Positions 3,237-20,117 of a stretch of DNA of 20,339 nucleotides are shown piece by piece (position 1 is the first letter of the stretch; every line of letters starts with the position of its first letter). The notes under the pieces are model-generated. The model did no database searches, was not told the DNA's origin, and saw nothing but the letters and a program-made list of their open reading frames with translations. The DNA comes from a virus. A program made the position numbers and the translations under genes. The DNA is taken from positions 1-20,339 of the IMG/VR virus record IMGVR_UViG_3300017753_002155, one strand, 5' to 3'.

Positions 3237-3643
3237 GCTTTACTGCATCTACATTTGATCTATTACATGCTGGTCATATAATGATGTTGAGAGAAGCAAA
3301 AGCACAATGTGATTATCTAATCTGTGCCTTACAGGTAGATCCAACACTCGATCGTGCTGAAAAGAATTCACCGGTACAAAGTATTGTAGAAAGACAAGCA
3401 CAACTTGCTGCAATAAAATATGTCGATGAAGTCATTATTTATTGTACAGAAGCCGATTTACTTGATATAATAAACATGTACCCGATTAATGTTCGTATAC
3501 TTGGAGAAGAATACAGACAGAAAGATTTTACTGGTAAAGATGAATGTCGTAATCGTGGCATTGAACTTTACTTTAACAAGCGAGATCACAGGTTTTCTAC
3601 TAGTGATTTAAGAAAGAGAGTATCAAATGCAAATGGGAGTTAA
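3212..3643 (+). CDS. TagD/RfaE-type nucleotidyltransferase
   Basis: 143 residues, the whole length of a small cytidylyltransferase-like enzyme such as glycerol-3-phosphate cytidylyltransferase or the ADP-heptose synthase domain. GFTASTFDLLHAGHIMML (9-26) holds the HxGH nucleotide-binding motif (H19, H22). RFSTSDLRKR (127-136) is the family's ISTTxLR-type motif near the C-terminus. It would couple a phosphorylated sugar or polyol to CMP, AMP or another nucleotide. ATG 3212 is chosen, with TGGGAG 6 bases upstream, over a TTG at 3200. It overlaps the phosphomannomutase end by 25 bases and the next gene by 17. Substrate and nucleotide specificity cannot be read from the sequence. Confidence 0.75.
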   Translation: MESTKKIIGFTASTFDLLHAGHIMMLREAKAQCDYLICALQVDPTLDRAEKNSPVQSIVERQAQLAAIKYVDEVIIYCTEADLLDIINMYPINVRILGEEYRQKDFTGKDECRNRGIELYFNKRDHRFSTSDLRKRVSNANGS

Positions 3644-4301
3644 GGATGTCCGAGAACATTTTATTGGAGAACTTGAAAGCAAAGCCTTCACCGTCGACAA
3701 AACTGGACAAAACACAATTGAGTTGCTTGGCGCTTCATTTATTGCAGACGAGCCAGCAATCTTCGGAGTTCCAAACGACGAATACATCACCGCTGAATTG
3801 GATTGGTACCTTTCTGGTAGTACTAATATTAATGACATTTATCGGTGGCCTCAGTATCCTCCTGATAAACAACCCCCAGCTGCTTGGCAATTTGCTGCAA
3901 ATGAGCGTGGTGAGATAAATTCTAATTACGGTCGTCTTATTTTCAGTGATATATATTATAGACAGTACGACAATGTTCTTACACAGTTGTTAGAAAATCC
4001 TGACTCTCGTAGAGCGTCAATGGTCTACCAAAGACCATCAATATGGGTAGAGTATACTGAAAATGGCAAAGGCGATTTTATCTGTACTAATGCTGTTACT
4101 TATTACATTCGCAATGGTGAATTGCAGTGTGTCGTTCAGATGCGATCAAACGATGTCGTGTTCGGATATAAGAATGACTATGCTTGGCAGCTTTATGTTC
4201 TAGAAACTCTCGCTAAAGATCTTGGTGTAGAGCCAGGGTTTATGATCTGGCAAGTACAAAACTTACATGTCTATGAAAGGCATTTCGATCTTGTTAAATA
4301 A
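3627..4301 (+). CDS. 42: dCMP hydroxymethylase (T4 gp42-like)
   Basis: 224 residues, thymidylate-synthase family, with the specific signature of T4 gp42, which converts dCMP to 5-hydroxymethyl-dCMP using methylene-THF. Long stretches agree with T4 gp42 as I recall it: VDKTGQNTIELLGASFIADEP (read in two parts, 23-32 and 33-43), GEINSNYG (95-102), NPDSRRASMVYQRPS (124-138), DFICTNAV (150-157) with catalytic C153, and MRSNDVVFGYKNDYAWQ (172-188). The aspartate D184 replaces the asparagine used by thymidylate synthases to recognise dUMP and corresponds to the residue giving T4 gp42 its preference for dCMP. ATG 3627 follows AGAGAG; ATG 3633 is an alternative. It overlaps both neighbours, consistent with a tightly coupled operon. 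Its presence implies 5-hydroxymethylcytosine in the phage DNA. Confidence 0.93.
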   Translation: MQMGVKDVREHFIGELESKAFTVDKTGQNTIELLGASFIADEPAIFGVPNDEYITAELDWYLSGSTNINDIYRWPQYPPDKQPPAAWQFAANERGEINSNYGRLIFSDIYYRQYDNVLTQLLENPDSRRASMVYQRPSIWVEYTENGKGDFICTNAVTYYIRNGELQCVVQMRSNDVVFGYKNDYAWQLYVLETLAKDLGVEPGFMIWQVQNLHVYERHFDLVK

Positions 4302-4752
4302 GTGGGACATGCGTTATCTACAGCTCGCTGAGGAAGTGGCTGGTTGGTCTAAAGATCCATCCACTAAAATTGGTGCAATTGCTGTAGGTGCTAAAGGTCA
4401 AGTCTTATCGCAAGGTTATAACGGTTTTCCGCGTGGAATTGATGACCACATAGATCTATATAAAGATCGTGAAACAAAATATAAGTATGTCGTCCATGCA
4501 GAAATGAACGTCATATATAATGCTACATATCATGGCATATGTCTTGAAGGTAGTACTTTATATGTCACAGGGTTACCCGTTTGTTCTGATTGTGCAAAGG
4601 GTATTATTCAAGTCGGCATCTCGAGAGTAGTTATGAAAGAACATTTAACACCACAAAAGTGGGTAGACTCATGGAAGACTACATCTCAGATGTTTGATCA
4701 AGTCAATATTAAATGGGAGTTTATCAATGTCAGCAACACAGGAATGGCTTAG
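4267..4752 (+). CDS. dCMP deaminase
   Basis: Zinc-dependent deoxycytidylate deaminase, dCMP to dUMP, feeding dTMP synthesis. The zinc/catalytic motifs are HAEMN (77-81, H77 ligand and E79 proton shuttle) and PVCSDC (104-109, C106 and C109). The N-terminal KWDMRYLQLAEEVAGWSKDPSTK segment (read from 12 on) and NGFPRG (52-57) are typical of dCMP deaminases. Start is uncertain: ATG 4267 or 4273 lies inside the gp42 gene, TTG 4291 would begin just before the conserved KWD, and ATG 4309 would remove it. The upstream choice is kept because homologues normally include KWD. Together with ThyX at 12713 it forms a dCMP to dUMP to dTMP route, and it shares its substrate with the neighbouring hydroxymethylase. 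Confidence 0.87.
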   Translation: MSMKGISILLNKWDMRYLQLAEEVAGWSKDPSTKIGAIAVGAKGQVLSQGYNGFPRGIDDHIDLYKDRETKYKYVVHAEMNVIYNATYHGICLEGSTLYVTGLPVCSDCAKGIIQVGISRVVMKEHLTPQKWVDSWKTTSQMFDQVNIKWEFINVSNTGMA

Positions 4753-4957
4753 AAAAAAATTTCAAGAAGAAGCCAGAACAGCCAGAACTACAGGTGATCT
4801 TTATAACGAATATAGCAATTCAAGATTGACTAAGGAAGTAGAAGATCTTAAAGAAAGGTTAAAAAAGGTAGAAACTGACATGGCATATACACAGAAGATT
4901 AGATTTGCTCAAAGTCCTGAAGAGCAAAGAATAAATGACATAAGGAATATAGATTGA
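4727..4957 (+). CDS. Small helical hypothetical protein
   Basis: 76 residues, strongly charged and predicted to be largely alpha-helical. The middle part (about 30-58: SRLTKEVEDLKERLKKVETD) has heptad-like spacing of L/V and alternating K/E, so a short coiled coil is likely. No recognised family. ATG 4727 has GGGAG 8 bases upstream and overlaps the deaminase end by 26 bases. Its stop TGA is shared with the TTG start of the next gene. The conserved coupling suggests a real gene, but no function is offered. Confidence 0.6.
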   Translation: MSATQEWLRKKFQEEARTARTTGDLYNEYSNSRLTKEVEDLKERLKKVETDMAYTQKIRFAQSPEEQRINDIRNID

Positions 4958-5334
4958 TTCTAGTTATTGGACATAGCCCTTCTTCGAAAGAATACTGTCC
5001 GAGGAAGGGCAATCCATCTATCAACCGTCTTAACAGGTGGCTCGATGCATGTGGTGTGGAGATATACAGCTTCAGCAATGCGTGTGCACACCACGCCCCA
5101 TCTCTTAAAAAGGGTAAGGTTGATGAAACATATATAAAAGAAATAACAAAGTCTTATAATAAAATACTAACATTAGGAAAAGAAGTTTCTAATTATTTCA
5201 CTAAAATGGGTATCGAGCATTACGCACTCCCACACCCATCTCCGCTTAACCGGCAGTTTAATGATAAAGCGTATGAACCAAAAGTCATAAATAACTTAAA
5301 TAACTATTTACAAATAGACTCAACTGTGGTATAA
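4954..5334 (+). CDS. Uracil-DNA-glycosylase-fold protein
   Basis: 126 residues resembling the uracil-DNA glycosylase superfamily. The N-terminal loop after the first strand reads VIGHSPSSKEY (4-14), in the place of the catalytic water-binding motif. NRWLDACGV (27-35) and FSNACAH (40-46) fit the following helix and strand, LTLGKEVSNYF (72-82) the fourth strand and helix, and LPHPSPLNRQF (92-102) is the HPSPLN minor-groove loop of UDGs. It starts with TTG in a TTGA overlap with the previous stop. Its own stop TAA lies inside the -10 box of P3. Whether it excises a base is unknown; the absence of an obvious catalytic acid in the first motif leaves a binding or base-transfer role open. Confidence 0.55.
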   Translation: MILVIGHSPSSKEYCPRKGNPSINRLNRWLDACGVEIYSFSNACAHHAPSLKKGKVDETYIKEITKSYNKILTLGKEVSNYFTKMGIEHYALPHPSPLNRQFNDKAYEPKVINNLNNYLQIDSTVV

Positions 5335-12516: not shown

Positions 12517-12713
12517 TGCAAGTATTGTGGCACTTAATGTTAACTGTTTGTATGGATGGAACCTGTGCTAAGCAGGAAGTACAAAGATTTGATCCACCAA
12601 ATGCTAAAGTAAAATGTGAAGTAATGTTGCCAATATATAAAGAAGTTCCTCTAGATAGTGAAGGTGGAACAGTTGAGTATATTTGCAAGCCATTAGGAAG
12701 TGTAGGTACATAA
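12516..12713 (+). CDS. Small hypothetical protein with hydrophobic N-terminus
   Basis: 65 residues. The N-terminus MQVLWHLMLTVCMDGTCA is hydrophobic with paired cysteines C12 and C17. Two more cysteines follow, at C34 and C56. The layout recalls small phage and enterobacterial proteins with a hydrophobic strand followed by C-x4-C, but no family is assigned. It is coupled by TAATG on both sides, between the small gene above and thyX. Confidence 0.55.
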   Translation: MQVLWHLMLTVCMDGTCAKQEVQRFDPPNAKVKCEVMLPIYKEVPLDSEGGTVEYICKPLGSVGT

Positions 12714-13372
12714 TGCAAACAAGACTAATCAGTTATAGTAAACCACCGGAGGAACTCTATGTCGGTAACGATCTCCAAGAACTTATTGCGTACGCAGCCC
12801 GTGTCTCGAATCCCTCGAACCAAGATAACACCGAAACCTCGGAAAAATTATTACGATATCTCATTAGAGAAAAACACTGGTCGCCATTTGAAATGGTTAG
12901 CGCTTGCCTAGAAGTTACAACTACACGTGATATTGCAAGACAATTACTAAGACACAGGTCATTCTCGTTTCAAGAGTTTAGTCAAAGGTATGCTGATCCT
13001 ACACAAGATCTTAAGTTTCAATTTAAGAATGCACGCTTACAAGACACAAAGAATAGACAGAATAGTTTAGATGTAAACGATCCTGACTTAAAATTAGAAT
13101 GGTTGCAACAACAGGCGGAGGTAGTAAATGCTGCAAAAAAATCTTACAATTGGGCAATTGAAAATAATATTGCGAAAGAACAAGCTCGTGCAGTTTTGCC
13201 GGAAGGTATTATGGAATCCCGCTTGTACGTCAACGGGACCATTAGGTCCTGGATCCATTATATCGGATTACGTTCAGGTCATGGCACACAAAAAGAACAC
13301 ATAGAATTAGCCAGATCTTGTGCTGAATCTTTAGAACCAGTATTTCCTATGATAAAAGAATTTTGTAACTAA
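12713..13372 (+). CDS. thyX: FAD-dependent thymidylate synthase ThyX
   Basis: 219 residues, flavin-dependent thymidylate synthase (dUMP to dTMP using methylene-THF, NADPH and FAD). The signature RHRSFSFQEFSQRY (80-93) matches RHR-x7-S. The C-terminal EQARAVLPEGIMESRLYVNG and RSWIHYIGLRSGHGTQKEH segments carry the substrate-binding arginines typical of ThyX. ATG 12713 overlaps the previous stop (TAATG); a longer frame from 12683 is inside that gene. It complements the dCMP deaminase at 4267. The phage thus uses the unrelated ThyX for dTMP while its thymidylate-synthase-fold gene is the hydroxymethylase. Confidence 0.93.
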   Translation: MQTRLISYSKPPEELYVGNDLQELIAYAARVSNPSNQDNTETSEKLLRYLIREKHWSPFEMVSACLEVTTTRDIARQLLRHRSFSFQEFSQRYADPTQDLKFQFKNARLQDTKNRQNSLDVNDPDLKLEWLQQQAEVVNAAKKSYNWAIENNIAKEQARAVLPEGIMESRLYVNGTIRSWIHYIGLRSGHGTQKEHIELARSCAESLEPVFPMIKEFCN

Positions 13373-13394: not shown

Positions 13395-14453
13395 ATGTTT
13401 CGAAAATTACTAGTAGCGGGTGCAATGTTGCTTTCCGCTTTAACTATGGCTCATGCAGAACCAGTTAAAGTTGGATTCGTATACGTAGGCCCAGTTGGTG
13501 ACCATGGATGGACATACCGTCATGACATTGGTCGTCAACAAGTAGAAGAAGCTTTTGGCGATAAAGTTAAAACAACTTACGTTGAAAGTGTTAAGTATGG
13601 TCCAGATGCTGAGCGTACAATTCGTATGTTAGCACAAACCAATGATATTGTATTTGCCACATCATTTGGTTATATGGAGCCAATGTTAAAAGTTGCCAAG
13701 GAGTTTCCTAACGTATACTTTGAACACGCTACGGGATATAAGCAAGCAGATAACATGAGTTCTTATGGATTGCGTCTATACCAAGCACGCCATGTGCAGG
13801 GTATTATTGCGGGTATGATGACTAAGACTAATAAGATTTGTTATGTTGCTGCATATCCTATCCCTGAAGTTATTCGTGAGATTAACACATATTATATGGG
13901 TGCCAAGAAGATGAATCCGGATGTCGACATCGATATCGTATGGGCAAACACTTGGTATAATCCTAGTAAAGAAGCAGATGCTGCTAACGTTATGATGGCA
14001 GAAGGTTGTGATATGGTAGCACAGCACACTGATTCTCCTGCACCATTACAGGCTGCGCAACAACAAGGTAAGTTAGGTTTTGGTCAGGCAAGCGATCAAT
14101 ACAAATTTGCACCTAAGGCACAGCTCACAGCGACCATTGATAATTGGGGACCTTATTACATTAAGAAGGTTGGCCAAGTTATTGCTGGTAACTGGCAAAA
14201 AGAAAACTACTTTGGACATATGAAAGACGGGGCTGTGCAAATGGCGCCATTCACAAATATGCCTGAAGATGTAAGGATTAAAGCACAAGAGATTAAAGAT
14301 ATGATCTCTCATGGTCATTACTTTGCATTTACAGGACCAATTAGAGACAACACTGGTAAGCTTCAATTGAAAGACGGTGAAGTCGCAGATGATATGCATC
14401 TTAATAGTATGATGTACTATGTAGAAGGCATTGACGCTACGGTACCGAAGTAA
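13395..14453 (+). CDS. BMP-family periplasmic substrate-binding protein
   Basis: 352 residues, BMP/PnrA/Med family (type I periplasmic binding fold), the substrate-binding part of ABC importers for purine or other nucleosides. Residues 1-21 form a signal peptide (MFRKLLVAGAMLLSALTMAHA, read as K/R start, hydrophobic core, AHA cleavage site) with no lipobox cysteine, so the product should be free in the periplasm. VGFVYVGPVGDHGWTYRHD (from 27), the central GIIAGMMTKTNKICYVAAYP (about 135-154) and WYNPSKEADAANVMMAEGCD with VAQHTDSPAPLQAAQ are characteristic. AGGGAGA precedes ATG 13395. No transport permease or ATPase gene is in the window, so it would have to work with the host's importer. It is probably host-derived (inference) and sits with a 2OG oxygenase in the uvsX-thyX unit. 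Confidence 0.88.
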   Translation: MFRKLLVAGAMLLSALTMAHAEPVKVGFVYVGPVGDHGWTYRHDIGRQQVEEAFGDKVKTTYVESVKYGPDAERTIRMLAQTNDIVFATSFGYMEPMLKVAKEFPNVYFEHATGYKQADNMSSYGLRLYQARHVQGIIAGMMTKTNKICYVAAYPIPEVIREINTYYMGAKKMNPDVDIDIVWANTWYNPSKEADAANVMMAEGCDMVAQHTDSPAPLQAAQQQGKLGFGQASDQYKFAPKAQLTATIDNWGPYYIKKVGQVIAGNWQKENYFGHMKDGAVQMAPFTNMPEDVRIKAQEIKDMISHGHYFAFTGPIRDNTGKLQLKDGEVADDMHLNSMMYYVEGIDATVPK

Positions 14454-17798: not shown

Positions 17799-18638
17799 AT
17801 GACACAACTTATAGACCCCAAGAAATTTACAGATACCGTTGGCCTATTAAGGTCTTTTTTTATAGGTAAAGGATTCCTCGAAGTCCATACTCAAAACAGA
17901 CTCAGCATACTTGCTGCATGTGAGGATCCGTTCAATGTGGCTACTTACAACTATGCGGGCCAAGTCTGGCCTCTACCACAAACCGGCCAGATGTGGTTGG
18001 AACATGAATTGTTAAGTAGCCCCGATACTCCGGGGTTTTTTTGTGTTTCCACTTCGTACAGGCAAGAACCAAATGCAATACCGGGTAGACATGATATTAT
18101 CTTTCCGATGTTTGAATTTGAAATGCCCGGTGACATAAACGATCTTAAAGATATGGAATATGAACTATGCGAATACTTAGGTTTTGGTGGCTTTGGTGAA
18201 ATAGTTGCAAGACCATACTCAGAGTGGCAAAAACATTATGGCCTTAGTGAAGATACAGAGATGGAAGCAGAACATGAATTAAAGATGTACGAAGAGTTTG
18301 GTGTCACAATGATAACAGACTTTCCTGAAATGACAAGTCCATTTTGGAATATGTCACGCAATGGGGATGGTACAAGTAGAAAGATCGATGTTATCCTTGG
18401 TGGTATGGAAACAATAGGTAGTGCAGAACGTAGCACTGACGTTGATCAAATGAGAGATACCTTCCATACGATTACAGATGGTGCATACAGTAACTTACTG
18501 TTTGATCTTTTCGGTAAAGATCGAGTAGAAGCAGAACTAGAAGAGTTCTTAAAGTTTGACTTCTTTCCACGTGTAGGTGGAGGAATCGGCATGACAAGAA
18601 TGATTGCTGCTCTCGAAAAATACGACGGTCCATACTAA
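17799..18638 (+). CDS. AsnRS/AspRS-related class II synthetase core (AsnA-like)
   Basis: 279 residues corresponding only to the catalytic domain of class II aminoacyl-tRNA synthetases of the Asp/Asn/Lys group. Motif 2 is FCVSTSYRQEPNAIPGRHD (81-99, R88xE90) continuing to FEFE (105-108). Motif 3 is GGGIGMTRM (260-268, R267). There is no N-terminal OB-fold anticodon-binding domain; the chain begins almost at the motif 1 helix. Free-standing cores of this kind include an archaeal AspRS/AsnRS-related protein known to make asparagine from aspartate, and paralogues that aminoacylate. AAAGGAAA precedes ATG 17799. The gene ends 6 bases before a tRNA gene with a GUU (Asn) anticodon. Both asparagine synthesis and tRNA charging are open. 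Confidence 0.8.
   Translation: MTQLIDPKKFTDTVGLLRSFFIGKGFLEVHTQNRLSILAACEDPFNVATYNYAGQVWPLPQTGQMWLEHELLSSPDTPGFFCVSTSYRQEPNAIPGRHDIIFPMFEFEMPGDINDLKDMEYELCEYLGFGGFGEIVARPYSEWQKHYGLSEDTEMEAEHELKMYEEFGVTMITDFPEMTSPFWNMSRNGDGTSRKIDVILGGMETIGSAERSTDVDQMRDTFHTITDGAYSNLLFDLFGKDRVEAELEEFLKFDFFPRVGGGIGMTRMIAALEKYDGPY
18018..18042 (+). terminator. Intrinsic-terminator-like hairpin inside the aaRS-like gene
   Basis: CCCCG (18020-18024), a 6-base loop, CGGGG (18031-18035), then seven T (18036-18042). The stem extends by a G-U and an A-T pair. It encodes SSPDTPGFF of the reading frame, so it may be a codon accident. Its form is the best rho-independent terminator in the window, lying about 220 bases into the gene. 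Confidence 0.4.
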
Positions 18639-18644
18639 ACTTAT

Positions 18645-18729
18645 TGCTGGGTGGTGAAATCGGTAAACACGCATGACTGTTTCTCATGTGCGGAAACGCT
18701 TGCAGGTTCGAGTCCTGCCCCAGCAGCCA
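18645..18729 (+). tRNA. Atypical tRNA, anticodon GUU (Asn) on a class II (Leu-like) body
   Basis: 85 bases folding into a full cloverleaf with encoded CCA. Acceptor TGCTGGG/CCCAGCA, 7 pairs; discriminator G. D-arm GTG/CAC with loop AAATCGGTAAA, almost the same as tRNA-Leu. Anticodon arm CATGA/TCATG with loop CTGTTTC, placing GUU at 34-36. Long variable arm of 13 bases with stem GCG/CGC. T-arm GCAGG/CCTGC with loop TTCGAGT. Long variable arms belong to Leu, Ser and Tyr tRNAs, whereas U1-A72, G73 and GUU are features of tRNA-Asn. U37 is abnormal, since a purine is nearly universal there. It follows the aaRS-like gene by 6 bases and is probably co-transcribed. A recently degenerated tRNA is the main alternative. 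Confidence 0.8.
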
Positions 18730-18745
18730 ACTTGAATATTAGCTG

Positions 18746-18774
18746 TTTACTTTTATGAATAACTGTGGTATAAT
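18746..18774 (+). promoter_or_regulatory. Sigma-70-like promoter P6
   Basis: TTTACT at 18746-18751, 17 bp, TATAAT at 18769-18774 within AACTGTGGTATAAT. It starts 17 bases after the tRNA and reads into the tmRNA and the Rieske-like gene. Confidence 0.8.
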
Positions 18775-18780
18775 AATAGT

Positions 18781-18788
18781 TATAAATA
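18781..18788 (+). promoter_or_regulatory. T4-late-type promoter box (TATAAATA)
   Basis: Exact TATAAATA, 6 bases after the -10 of P6. Late transcription from it would start near 18793-18795, right at the presumed 5' end of the tmRNA acceptor piece. Chance occurrence is possible in AT-rich sequence. Confidence 0.45.
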
Positions 18789-18846
18789 CTATAGAAGATG
18801 TTTGACGGTAGACTGGACCCGGGGGCGGTACCCGGCGCCTCCACCA

Positions 18847-18874
18847 ATATTCACCGATAACGGTGCATGCTTAT
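18847..18874 (+). other. tmRNA intervening segment (removed on processing)
   Basis: The 28 bases between the encoded CCA and the 5' G of the coding piece contain a perfect hairpin CACCG-ATAA-CGGTG (18852-18865). In permuted tmRNAs this joining segment is cut out of the precursor, leaving two RNAs; the hairpin may help present the ends to RNase P and 3' processing nucleases (inference). Confidence 0.7.
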
Positions 18875-18922
18875 GGGGGCGAAATAGGATCGACAGATGC
18901 AGGAGTCTTCAAAAAAGTAAAT

Positions 18923-18967
18923 GCAAACGATAATTTTGCACCTACAGGTTACGCCCTAGCGGCATAA
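18923..18967 (+). other. tmRNA proteolysis-tag reading frame
   Basis: Starts at the resume codon GCA and reads ANDNFAPTGYALAA then TAA. The N-terminal ANDN block is usual for proteobacterial tags. The C-terminal ALAA is the ClpXP/ClpAP-recognised degron. The two Asn codons, AAC and AAT, are those a GUU anticodon would read. Confidence 0.9.
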
Positions 18968-19028
18968 TGCTGATGAGCCCGAAGGAGCTTGGAAACAGAA
19001 TCCTTCAACTTATTCATAAGGAGAAAAC

Positions 19029-20117
19029 ATGCCACCACGTAATCATAGTAATTGGACTAAGACACCGAAGGTAGAATATATTAGTAGTGAGTGCTACAAT
19101 AATTATGAGATATTCAAACAAGAACAAGAAGATATATTTGCTAAAGTTTGGATTCCTATGTGTCATATAAGTGAGATGTATGACTTAGGTTCTTTCAGAA
19201 CAACTCAAATTGCAGGTGTCAATGTTTTAGCAGTTAATTCTAATTTTGGTGTAAAGGCATATAAAGATCATAATATTAGAACTCCCAGTGGAGTAATGAG
19301 TAGTTTACCTGATGAAGGAACAGAGCTACATTGTGAAGTAAAACATGGTGGAATGGTTTGGGTAACACTCGATCCTAATCCATCACAGAGTGTAGAAAGC
19401 TGGACAGCCGGCGCTTTCGATTGTATTGCAGATGCAATCGATACAGAAGAGATGGAAGTATTTCACTATCATAAAGCAGTTATAGATACAAACTATAAAC
19501 TGTGGCATGATACAAATAGTGAGTTCTACCACGACTTTATGCATTACTTTAATAGAGTATCAGGATTTAATGATGAATACTTTGCTAGAAAGAATATTCC
19601 TTTTGATAATGGTCACGTCAATGTCAGCAGTTTTACTGTTAACTATGAAGAATACGATGGGTTTGAGGATCGAGGTGAACTCTCATTCCCCAACTTACCA
19701 CCGAACCAGTGGTACATGGTTGACCTCTTCCCAGGATTTAACTTCAACCTACGTGGCAGCGCATATCGTTCTGACGCGGTAACACCGTTAGGACCAAACA
19801 AAGTATTGATCGAGTTCCGTGGTTATGGACTCAGGAAAGATACACCAGAAGAAAGACAGACTAGAATAAAGCATCATAATTCTATTTGGGGACCATTCGG
19901 TCGCAATCTCCATGAAGATTTAATCGGTGTTGCAGGTCAAGGTACGACCATGAGAGAAGGTACCGAAGCAAGAAACATTCTACACGGCCGTCATGAAAAT
20001 TCTACAATTCATGATGAAGTAGGTATGAGACATTATTATGAGGCATGGGGAAATATGTTAGGGGTAAACCCAATGAACCCTCTCACAACACAGGAGCTAA
20101 GTAGAAAAGCTGCATAA
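19029..20117 (+). CDS. Rieske-type oxygenase-like protein with altered cluster site
   Basis: 362 residues aligning in outline with the large subunit of Rieske non-heme iron oxygenases. The N-terminal part FAKVWIPMCHISEMYDLGSF (37-56), VNVLAVNSNFGVKAY and the HGGMVWVTLDPNP strand (106-118) follow the Rieske domain. The C-x-H...C-x2-H cluster motif is altered: the first pair reads K79-D-H81, and the second is C102-x3-H106. The catalytic domain keeps a likely mononuclear iron site, NYKLWHDTNSEFYHDFMH (155-172), with H168 and H172. AAGGAG just after the tmRNA serves ATG 19029, so it is probably transcribed from P6 with the tmRNA. It could have lost electron-transfer ability, bind a different metal centre, or have a non-oxygenase role. 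Substrate unknown. Confidence 0.75.
   Translation: MPPRNHSNWTKTPKVEYISSECYNNYEIFKQEQEDIFAKVWIPMCHISEMYDLGSFRTTQIAGVNVLAVNSNFGVKAYKDHNIRTPSGVMSSLPDEGTELHCEVKHGGMVWVTLDPNPSQSVESWTAGAFDCIADAIDTEEMEVFHYHKAVIDTNYKLWHDTNSEFYHDFMHYFNRVSGFNDEYFARKNIPFDNGHVNVSSFTVNYEEYDGFEDRGELSFPNLPPNQWYMVDLFPGFNFNLRGSAYRSDAVTPLGPNKVLIEFRGYGLRKDTPEERQTRIKHHNSIWGPFGRNLHEDLIGVAGQGTTMREGTEARNILHGRHENSTIHDEVGMRHYYEAWGNMLGVNPMNPLTTQELSRKAA

Follow-up and report, generated by a model that had tools for sequence, protein, structure and literature searches.

A conserved pairing of an AsnRS-like class II core with a tRNA-Asn-like gene in marine phages and its possible connection with pyrimidine synthesis

A viral contig of 20,339 nucleotides (IMG/VR record IMGVR_UViG_3300017753_002155; hereafter, the window) carries a free-standing catalytic core resembling asparaginyl-tRNA synthetase (AsnRS) and, immediately downstream, a tRNA that combines asparagine identity elements with a leucine-like body. 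The pair is conserved in related phages, and cellular homologues of the core often occur near late pyrimidine genes, in genomes in which the early genes of the pathway are mostly missing. We tentatively propose, with somewhat less than even confidence, that the core is an undescribed enzyme of the class II synthetase fold that replaces the first steps of pyrimidine synthesis, and that its phage form uses a dedicated Asn-donor tRNA. The upper part of pyrimidine synthesis is generally presented as universal. In open-licence PMC papers, we recognised no description of the core-tRNA pair or of such a pyrimidine route.

The core and its principal residues were located in the window as follows:
17799..18638, + strand: AsnRS-like class II catalytic core, 279 aa (PF00152, PHROG 29758; annotated 'tRNA ligase', T4-GC 194, in cyanophages)
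17997..18002, + strand: L67-E68 of the amino-acid pocket, the AsnRS-type Leu-Glu where AspRS has Lys-Gln (alignments; 108/108 phage and cellular members)
18060..18062, + strand: R88, which we take to be the motif 2 arginine (invariant, 108/108)
18429..18431, + strand: R211 in the G-S-A-E-R segment, at the position of the conserved GGSxR arginine of AsnRS/AspRS (alignment; 108/108)
18597..18599, + strand: R267, presumably the motif 3 arginine (invariant, 108/108)

The sole Pfam match of the 279-aa ORF was PF00152 (class II core D/K/N; E 1.6e-16, 60.7 bits versus a cut-off of 25), and its match in PHROG was PHROG 29758, a family of 'unknown function' (E 1.9e-131). No anticodon-binding domain (N-terminal OB) was found by the Pfam search, and the core fills the structure model. 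The AsnRS equivalog TIGR00457 was not reached (25 bits versus a cut-off of 342.6), nor was the NCBIfam model of archaeal-type asparagine synthetase A (AS-A), NF005055 (17.8 bits versus a cut-off of 389). An AlphaFold2 model of the core, built with 75 sequences, had a pLDDT of 88.4 and a pTM of 0.87. Counting structure matches less than 1 Z apart as tied, its nearest neighbours in the PDB were AsnRS (8h53, Z 26.7, rmsd 2.6 over 250 residues; 1x54, Z 25.8), followed by AspRS, archaeal AS-A (Z 23.8, target length 290), LysRS, and GenX. The lysine of the AspRS pocket and the Leu-Glu of the AsnRS pocket are expected to play a role in the choice of amino acid. Since residues 67-68 are of the AsnRS type and not the Lys-Gln of AspRS, the pocket, together with AsnRS as the nearest predicted fold, points to asparagine as the likely substrate.

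The core thus shares with AsnRS (class IIb) the catalytic fold, the L-E pocket signature, and the motif residues, but differs in having no anticodon-binding domain, in scoring far under the TIGR00457 cut-off, and in its pyrimidine gene context. It also resembles archaeal AS-A (AS-AR) and EpmA/GenX in being free-standing and of similar length (Z 23.8 and 22.7, respectively), but falls under the cut-offs of both families, which, in passages of PMC9437257, act without a dedicated tRNA and are sited elsewhere in metabolism. Truncated cores of this group make asparagine, according to the same passages, and together with the structural match to AS-A this would fit an AS-A/AS-AR-like core that makes free asparagine while the host charges the tRNA. 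We consider this quite improbable: the AS-A model score is far below its cut-off, the pocket is of the AsnRS and not the AspRS type, and the DHODH and OMPdecase neighbours and the loss of CarB and PyrB described below would be left unexplained. The initial annotation had offered free asparagine with a host-charged tRNA as its alternative; this came nearer to our findings, except that asparagine would be consumed rather than made.

The tRNA begins 6 nt behind the stop codon of the core, with the following features:
18645..18729, + strand: tRNA with GUU anticodon, long variable arm, Leu-like body, and encoded CCA (ARAGORN, Rfam)
18645..18651, + strand: acceptor stem, 5' strand, with U1 pairing A72 (pair 1-72 is U-A in 49/49)
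18677..18683, + strand: anticodon loop CUGUUUC, with G34U35U36 at 18679-18681 and U37 at 18682
18689..18701, + strand: variable arm, 13 nt (11-37 nt in relatives)
18719..18726, + strand: acceptor stem, 3' strand, and discriminator G73 (18726)

ARAGORN called this gene tRNA-Asn(GUU), and it scored 53.3 bits with the Rfam tRNA model. Pfam, PHROG, ARAGORN, and Rfam therefore bear out the initial annotation in its description of a free-standing AsnRS-like core followed after 6 nt by a tRNA with GUU, U1-A72, and G73. Its description of asparagine identity elements on a Leu-like body with a long variable arm also held across the family: U1-A72, G73, and G34-U35-U36 were each fixed in 102 of the 102 distinct family tRNAs. 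Judged by sequence, the family body is Leu-like; ordinary cellular tRNA-Leu genes scored 69-73 bits against the family covariance model, and in the same search six of seven family members scored 82-94 bits and the seventh (L246) 70. The window tRNA departs from tRNA-Leu in having G73 instead of A73 and GUU instead of a leucine anticodon. In part of PMC9976931, G73 in tRNA-Ser is listed as a block to LeuRS, the asparagine identity of a tRNA is ascribed to the anticodon and G73, and U1-A72 is given as the signal for Asp-tRNA-Asn amidotransferase. All three of these asparagine features are present in the window and in the 102 family tRNAs, a related tRNA at L246 being an exception outside this set, while the short variable loop of class I (the arm has 11-37 nt) and a purine at position 37 are lacking (purine in 14/102; U37 in the window).

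The U at position 37 of the window tRNA, a detail absent from the initial annotation, is typical of the family, in which this position is U in 83, A in 14, and C in 5 of the 102 distinct tRNAs. Position 33 is U in 90/102 and C or G in 12/102, and position 38 is also variable. Among 49 distinct aligned family tRNAs, compensatory changes were found at 20 of 23 base pairs. CCA is encoded in 49/102. By comparison, the 71 distinct other tRNAs from the same loci all had U33 and a purine at position 37 (71/71).

To describe the distribution of the pair, we collected relatives of the core from IMG/VR (at least 598, of which 80 were kept) and a further 80 loci with the P-SSM2 protein as query. A clover-leaf tRNA was found within 260 nt downstream of the core stop codon in 158 of 169 loci, in 152 of them at a distance of 4-12 nt, and this conserved arrangement excludes chance pairing. 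The 11 loci left out of the count comprise six that run off the contig, one (L086) whose tRNA fits a looser parse and has the same identity elements as the family, and four that are truly without a tRNA. These four, in which no tRNA adjoins the core, belong to huge phages (L005, L006, L167, L168); L181 and L182 also have no tRNA beside the core. Named phages with the core are P-SSM2, P-SSM5, and P-SSM7, where it is annotated 'tRNA ligase', and huge uncultured phages; in each of the three cyanophages, the tRNA lies 6-9 nt behind the core. In the part of Sullivan et al. 2010 (PMC3037559) that lists T4-GC 194 'tRNA ligase' in P-SSM2 and P-SSM7, neither a function nor a partner is given. Conservation of the pair in related phages, which the initial annotation had named as a check, was thus observed, the three cyanophages included. 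As evidence against a pair, the same annotation had named related phages with the synthetase-like gene and without this tRNA; such cases were not found in the main phage clade, but they do occur in huge phages, as well as in cells.

Because of their long variable arm, many family tRNAs were missed or misnamed by ARAGORN. In the huge phages W01 and W02, we found ordinary tRNA-Leu and class I tRNA-Asn, and the chimeric tRNA was not found. Among huge phages, ARAGORN called tRNA-Pyl(CTA) in LR756501 (two copies) and LR756508 (L333, L338); the three class I tRNA-Asn(GUU) genes of LR756501 differ from one another, G1 being present in two (L330). At L180, positions 4866-4885 directly after the core stop codon hold only a self-closed acceptor stem with G73-CCA, the tRNA body being absent, and this may be a relic, a microhelix, or an assembly artefact. 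At L246, the related tRNA (5077-5170) lies 210 nt behind the core, with 1-72 and 2-71 mispaired and without G73. The tRNA-Asn of P-SSM2 (L003, NC_006883.2) is placed by GenBank at 164094-164179, and its sequence was found at 162083-162168. Phage contigs with the pair (L177, L178, L179) were binned in bacterial MAGs, so taxon labels there are unsafe.

The pattern of conservation in the anticodon loop bears on the role of the tRNA. GUU is fixed while positions 33, 37, and 38 vary, so the triplet appears to be read by something indifferent to its neighbours, and this reader is probably not the ribosome. The core, being without an anticodon-binding domain, cannot itself demand an invariant GUU. 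Since the asparagine identity elements are fixed, we infer that the host Asn-charging system is the simplest reader. Mutation bias could explain the decoding-poor loop, but it is disfavoured because the 71 other tRNAs of the same loci keep U33 and the purine at position 37.

According to the initial annotation, the two genes could form an orthogonal pair, in which the core would act as synthetase for the tRNA, with Asn (or Asp) as the amino acid, and the charged tRNA would be used at Asn codons in the infected cell. The tight pairing in 158/169 loci, the intact class II residues (108/108) on an AsnRS fold, and the CCA encoded in 49 of the tRNAs are all consistent with this. Without an anticodon domain in the core, however, the invariance of GUU would be left to decoding, which should also keep U33 (90/102 versus 71/71) and the purine at position 37 (14/102 versus 71/71). 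Moreover, homologues of the core occur without the tRNA in cells, with an ordinary tRNA-Asn and in a pyrimidine context. Our data therefore speak against this claim, and we regard such a pair as improbable. A decoy or defence tRNA, whose GUU loop would either lure an anticodon nuclease or withstand it and which the core would maintain, could account for a fixed GUU among varying neighbours; it is very improbable, as the fixed U1-A72 and G73 would need a separate reason and the cellular pyrimidine context would remain unexplained.

A scan of 84,980 species genomes yielded 125 relatives of the core, of which 80 were kept; removal of eight phage-like loci (L177-L182, L192, L246) left 72 cellular loci. 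These cores are free-standing and occur in Patescibacteria, Bacteroidota, Midichloriaceae, Pasteurella atlantica, Dependentiae, Myxococcota, and others. Their distribution appears rare and sporadic, since the core was found in only 1 of 196 genomes in the order of one core-bearing genome (G043). L67, E68, R88, R211, and R267 are identical in all of the 108 phage and cellular rows, and from these pocket and motif residues we propose that phage and cellular cores may share the same function. In the tree, 30 of 32 tRNA-bearing rows fell in one clade (support 100/96), with L192 and L246 apart. No family tRNA was seen beside the core in the 72 cellular loci, on part of which the covariance model was run. 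Across 25 genomes, the family model R1 gave matches in five at E ≤ 1e-14. A dedicated tRNA in cells was rejected for the two R1 matches inspected as alignments, which were tRNA-Leu-like with a CAA anticodon. Among the tRNAs of P. atlantica and the Bandiella draft, the sole tRNA-Asn seen was an ordinary one, in P. atlantica.

Of the 72 cellular loci, 24 have a late pyrimidine gene no more than about 4 kb from the core, as grouped by blastp clustering rather than by a profile check of each member. At L216, the Pfam-checked order is core-OMPdecase-PRTase-DHODH-Prs; at L232 (P. atlantica), it is DHODH, core, OMPdecase, and PRTase, also Pfam-checked, with the PRTase just under the cut-off. Clustered late pyrimidine genes were found in only 8 of 168 phage loci, on the basis of sequence clusters. 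The order DHODH-core-tRNA-short PRTase was observed at the phage loci L053 and L065, and DHODH-core-tRNA at L178; L192 has the core and tRNA followed further on by a DHODH-like protein, which is below the Pfam cut-off. A candidate OPRT is also present at L008, L009, L039, L059, and L086, and Prs at L017, L018, and L046. The short phage PRTase had no Pfam match and no match among 50,697 phage records; its putative assignment as OPRT is based on its 33-44% identity to cellular PRTase. Neither DHODH nor OPRT was found beside the pair in the window, P-SSM2, or P-SSM7.

Absence of the early genes was assessed in 42 genomes, chosen by us from the 72 cellular loci, and in 14 control genomes. CarB (carbamoyl-phosphate synthase large subunit) was over the cut-off in 3/42 core genomes versus 14/14 controls, PyrB (aspartate carbamoyltransferase) in 1/42 (a fragment at a contig end) versus 14/14, and PyrC (dihydroorotase) in 1/42 versus 11/14; for PyrC, any match was obtained in 16/42 core genomes and none in 26/42. 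PyrE was over the cut-off in 18/42 and gave some match in 37/42, many of the weak ones possibly being other phosphoribosyltransferases; the late pathway thus seems to be kept in many core genomes. Among relatives in two orders, PyrB was over the cut-off in 145/196 and 50/60 genomes, and it was absent from the core-bearing members G043 and G022. The relation between presence of the core and loss of CarB and PyrB is an association and not proof, and as many core genomes are MAGs or belong to parasites or reduced organisms, genes may be missing for other reasons. The best cases of absence are Aureispira, with a genome of 7.4 Mb, and P. atlantica, whose genome is complete.

The proposed pyrimidine enzyme would stand in for carbamoyl-phosphate synthase, aspartate carbamoyltransferase, and probably dihydroorotase. 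Its reaction would most likely be asparagine + CO2/bicarbonate + ATP to dihydroorotate, for use by PyrD, PyrE, and PyrF. Asparagine would supply both nitrogens of dihydroorotate, and one carbon from CO2 with ATP would close the ring: the core, predicted to bind Asn and ATP, would adenylate a carbamate, on which the amide would then close. Such a ring closure would need no carbamoyl phosphate and fits the losses of CarB and PyrB. The core would thereby deliver to PyrD what CarAB, PyrB, and PyrC make, without being related to them in sequence. We know of no precedent for the adenylation of a carbamate by a class II synthetase fold.

In phages, the tRNA would be loaded with asparagine by the host AsnRS, or by a non-discriminating AspRS with GatCAB, via GUU, G73, and U1-A72. 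Its loop and body would keep it out of ordinary decoding, with ribosomes using it poorly, and the phage core would take asparagine from the charged tRNA. In cells, ordinary Asn-tRNA or free asparagine would serve instead. Since the cellular cores have no dedicated tRNA, P. atlantica having an ordinary tRNA-Asn only, the tRNA may not belong to the reaction. The core could then be a pyrimidine enzyme acting on the free amino acid, with the phage tRNA as a side element that replaces drained Asn-tRNA or adjusts how strongly the gene before it is expressed. The four huge-phage loci without a tRNA beside the core agree with this, but U1-A72, G73, and GUU, fixed in 102/102, argue for charging, and a tRNA that decodes poorly would not replenish the pool for translation; we consider this unlikely. 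A stricter form of the preferred reading, de novo pyrimidine synthesis from asparaginyl-tRNA, would have the core close the ring on tRNA-held asparagine, in place of CarAB, PyrB, and dihydroorotase, with ordinary tRNA-Asn in cells and a non-decoding tRNA in phages. This form we hold to be rather unlikely.

Two known systems offer parallels. In the glutamyl-tRNA reductase route to tetrapyrroles, an aminoacyl-tRNA is a metabolic substrate; the core would be analogous if the tRNA hypothesis is right, but with another amino acid, fold, and product. Pyrrolysyl-tRNA synthetase is a class II enzyme without a canonical anticodon domain that adjoins its own odd tRNA, and tRNA-Pyl decodes; the phage pair may be likened to it in layout, but differs in its sense anticodon and decoding-poor loop. 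If the proposed function is true, it would account for UMP production in the many Bacteroidota, Patescibacteria, and intracellular bacteria that lack CarAB and PyrB, as well as for the presence of the core in marine phages; and if many marine phages keep a tRNA for metabolism and not for decoding, the principle behind tetrapyrrole synthesis would have another example.

The rest of the window includes a DnaB-like helicase and a RecA/UvsX-like gene, whose nearest relative is in Phage C48C1, which is classified under Kyanoviridae. The window also encodes two thymidylate synthases that are unrelated to each other (PF00303 and ThyX, PF02511), together with a dCMP deaminase, at 3627-4301, 4267-4752, and 12683-13372. 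A gene for a Bmp/PnrA-like nucleoside-binding lipoprotein (PF02608) lies at 13395-14453; such a gene is uncommon in phages and may be connected with the supply of nucleosides. Directly after the tRNA, at 18742-19010, we observed a phage-borne two-piece (permuted) tmRNA of the alphaproteobacterial type (Rfam alpha_tmRNA, 106.3 bits). It is followed at 19029-20117 by a gene resembling the alpha subunit of ring-hydroxylating oxygenases (PF00848), and 17 phage loci have a relative of it in the vicinity of the core.
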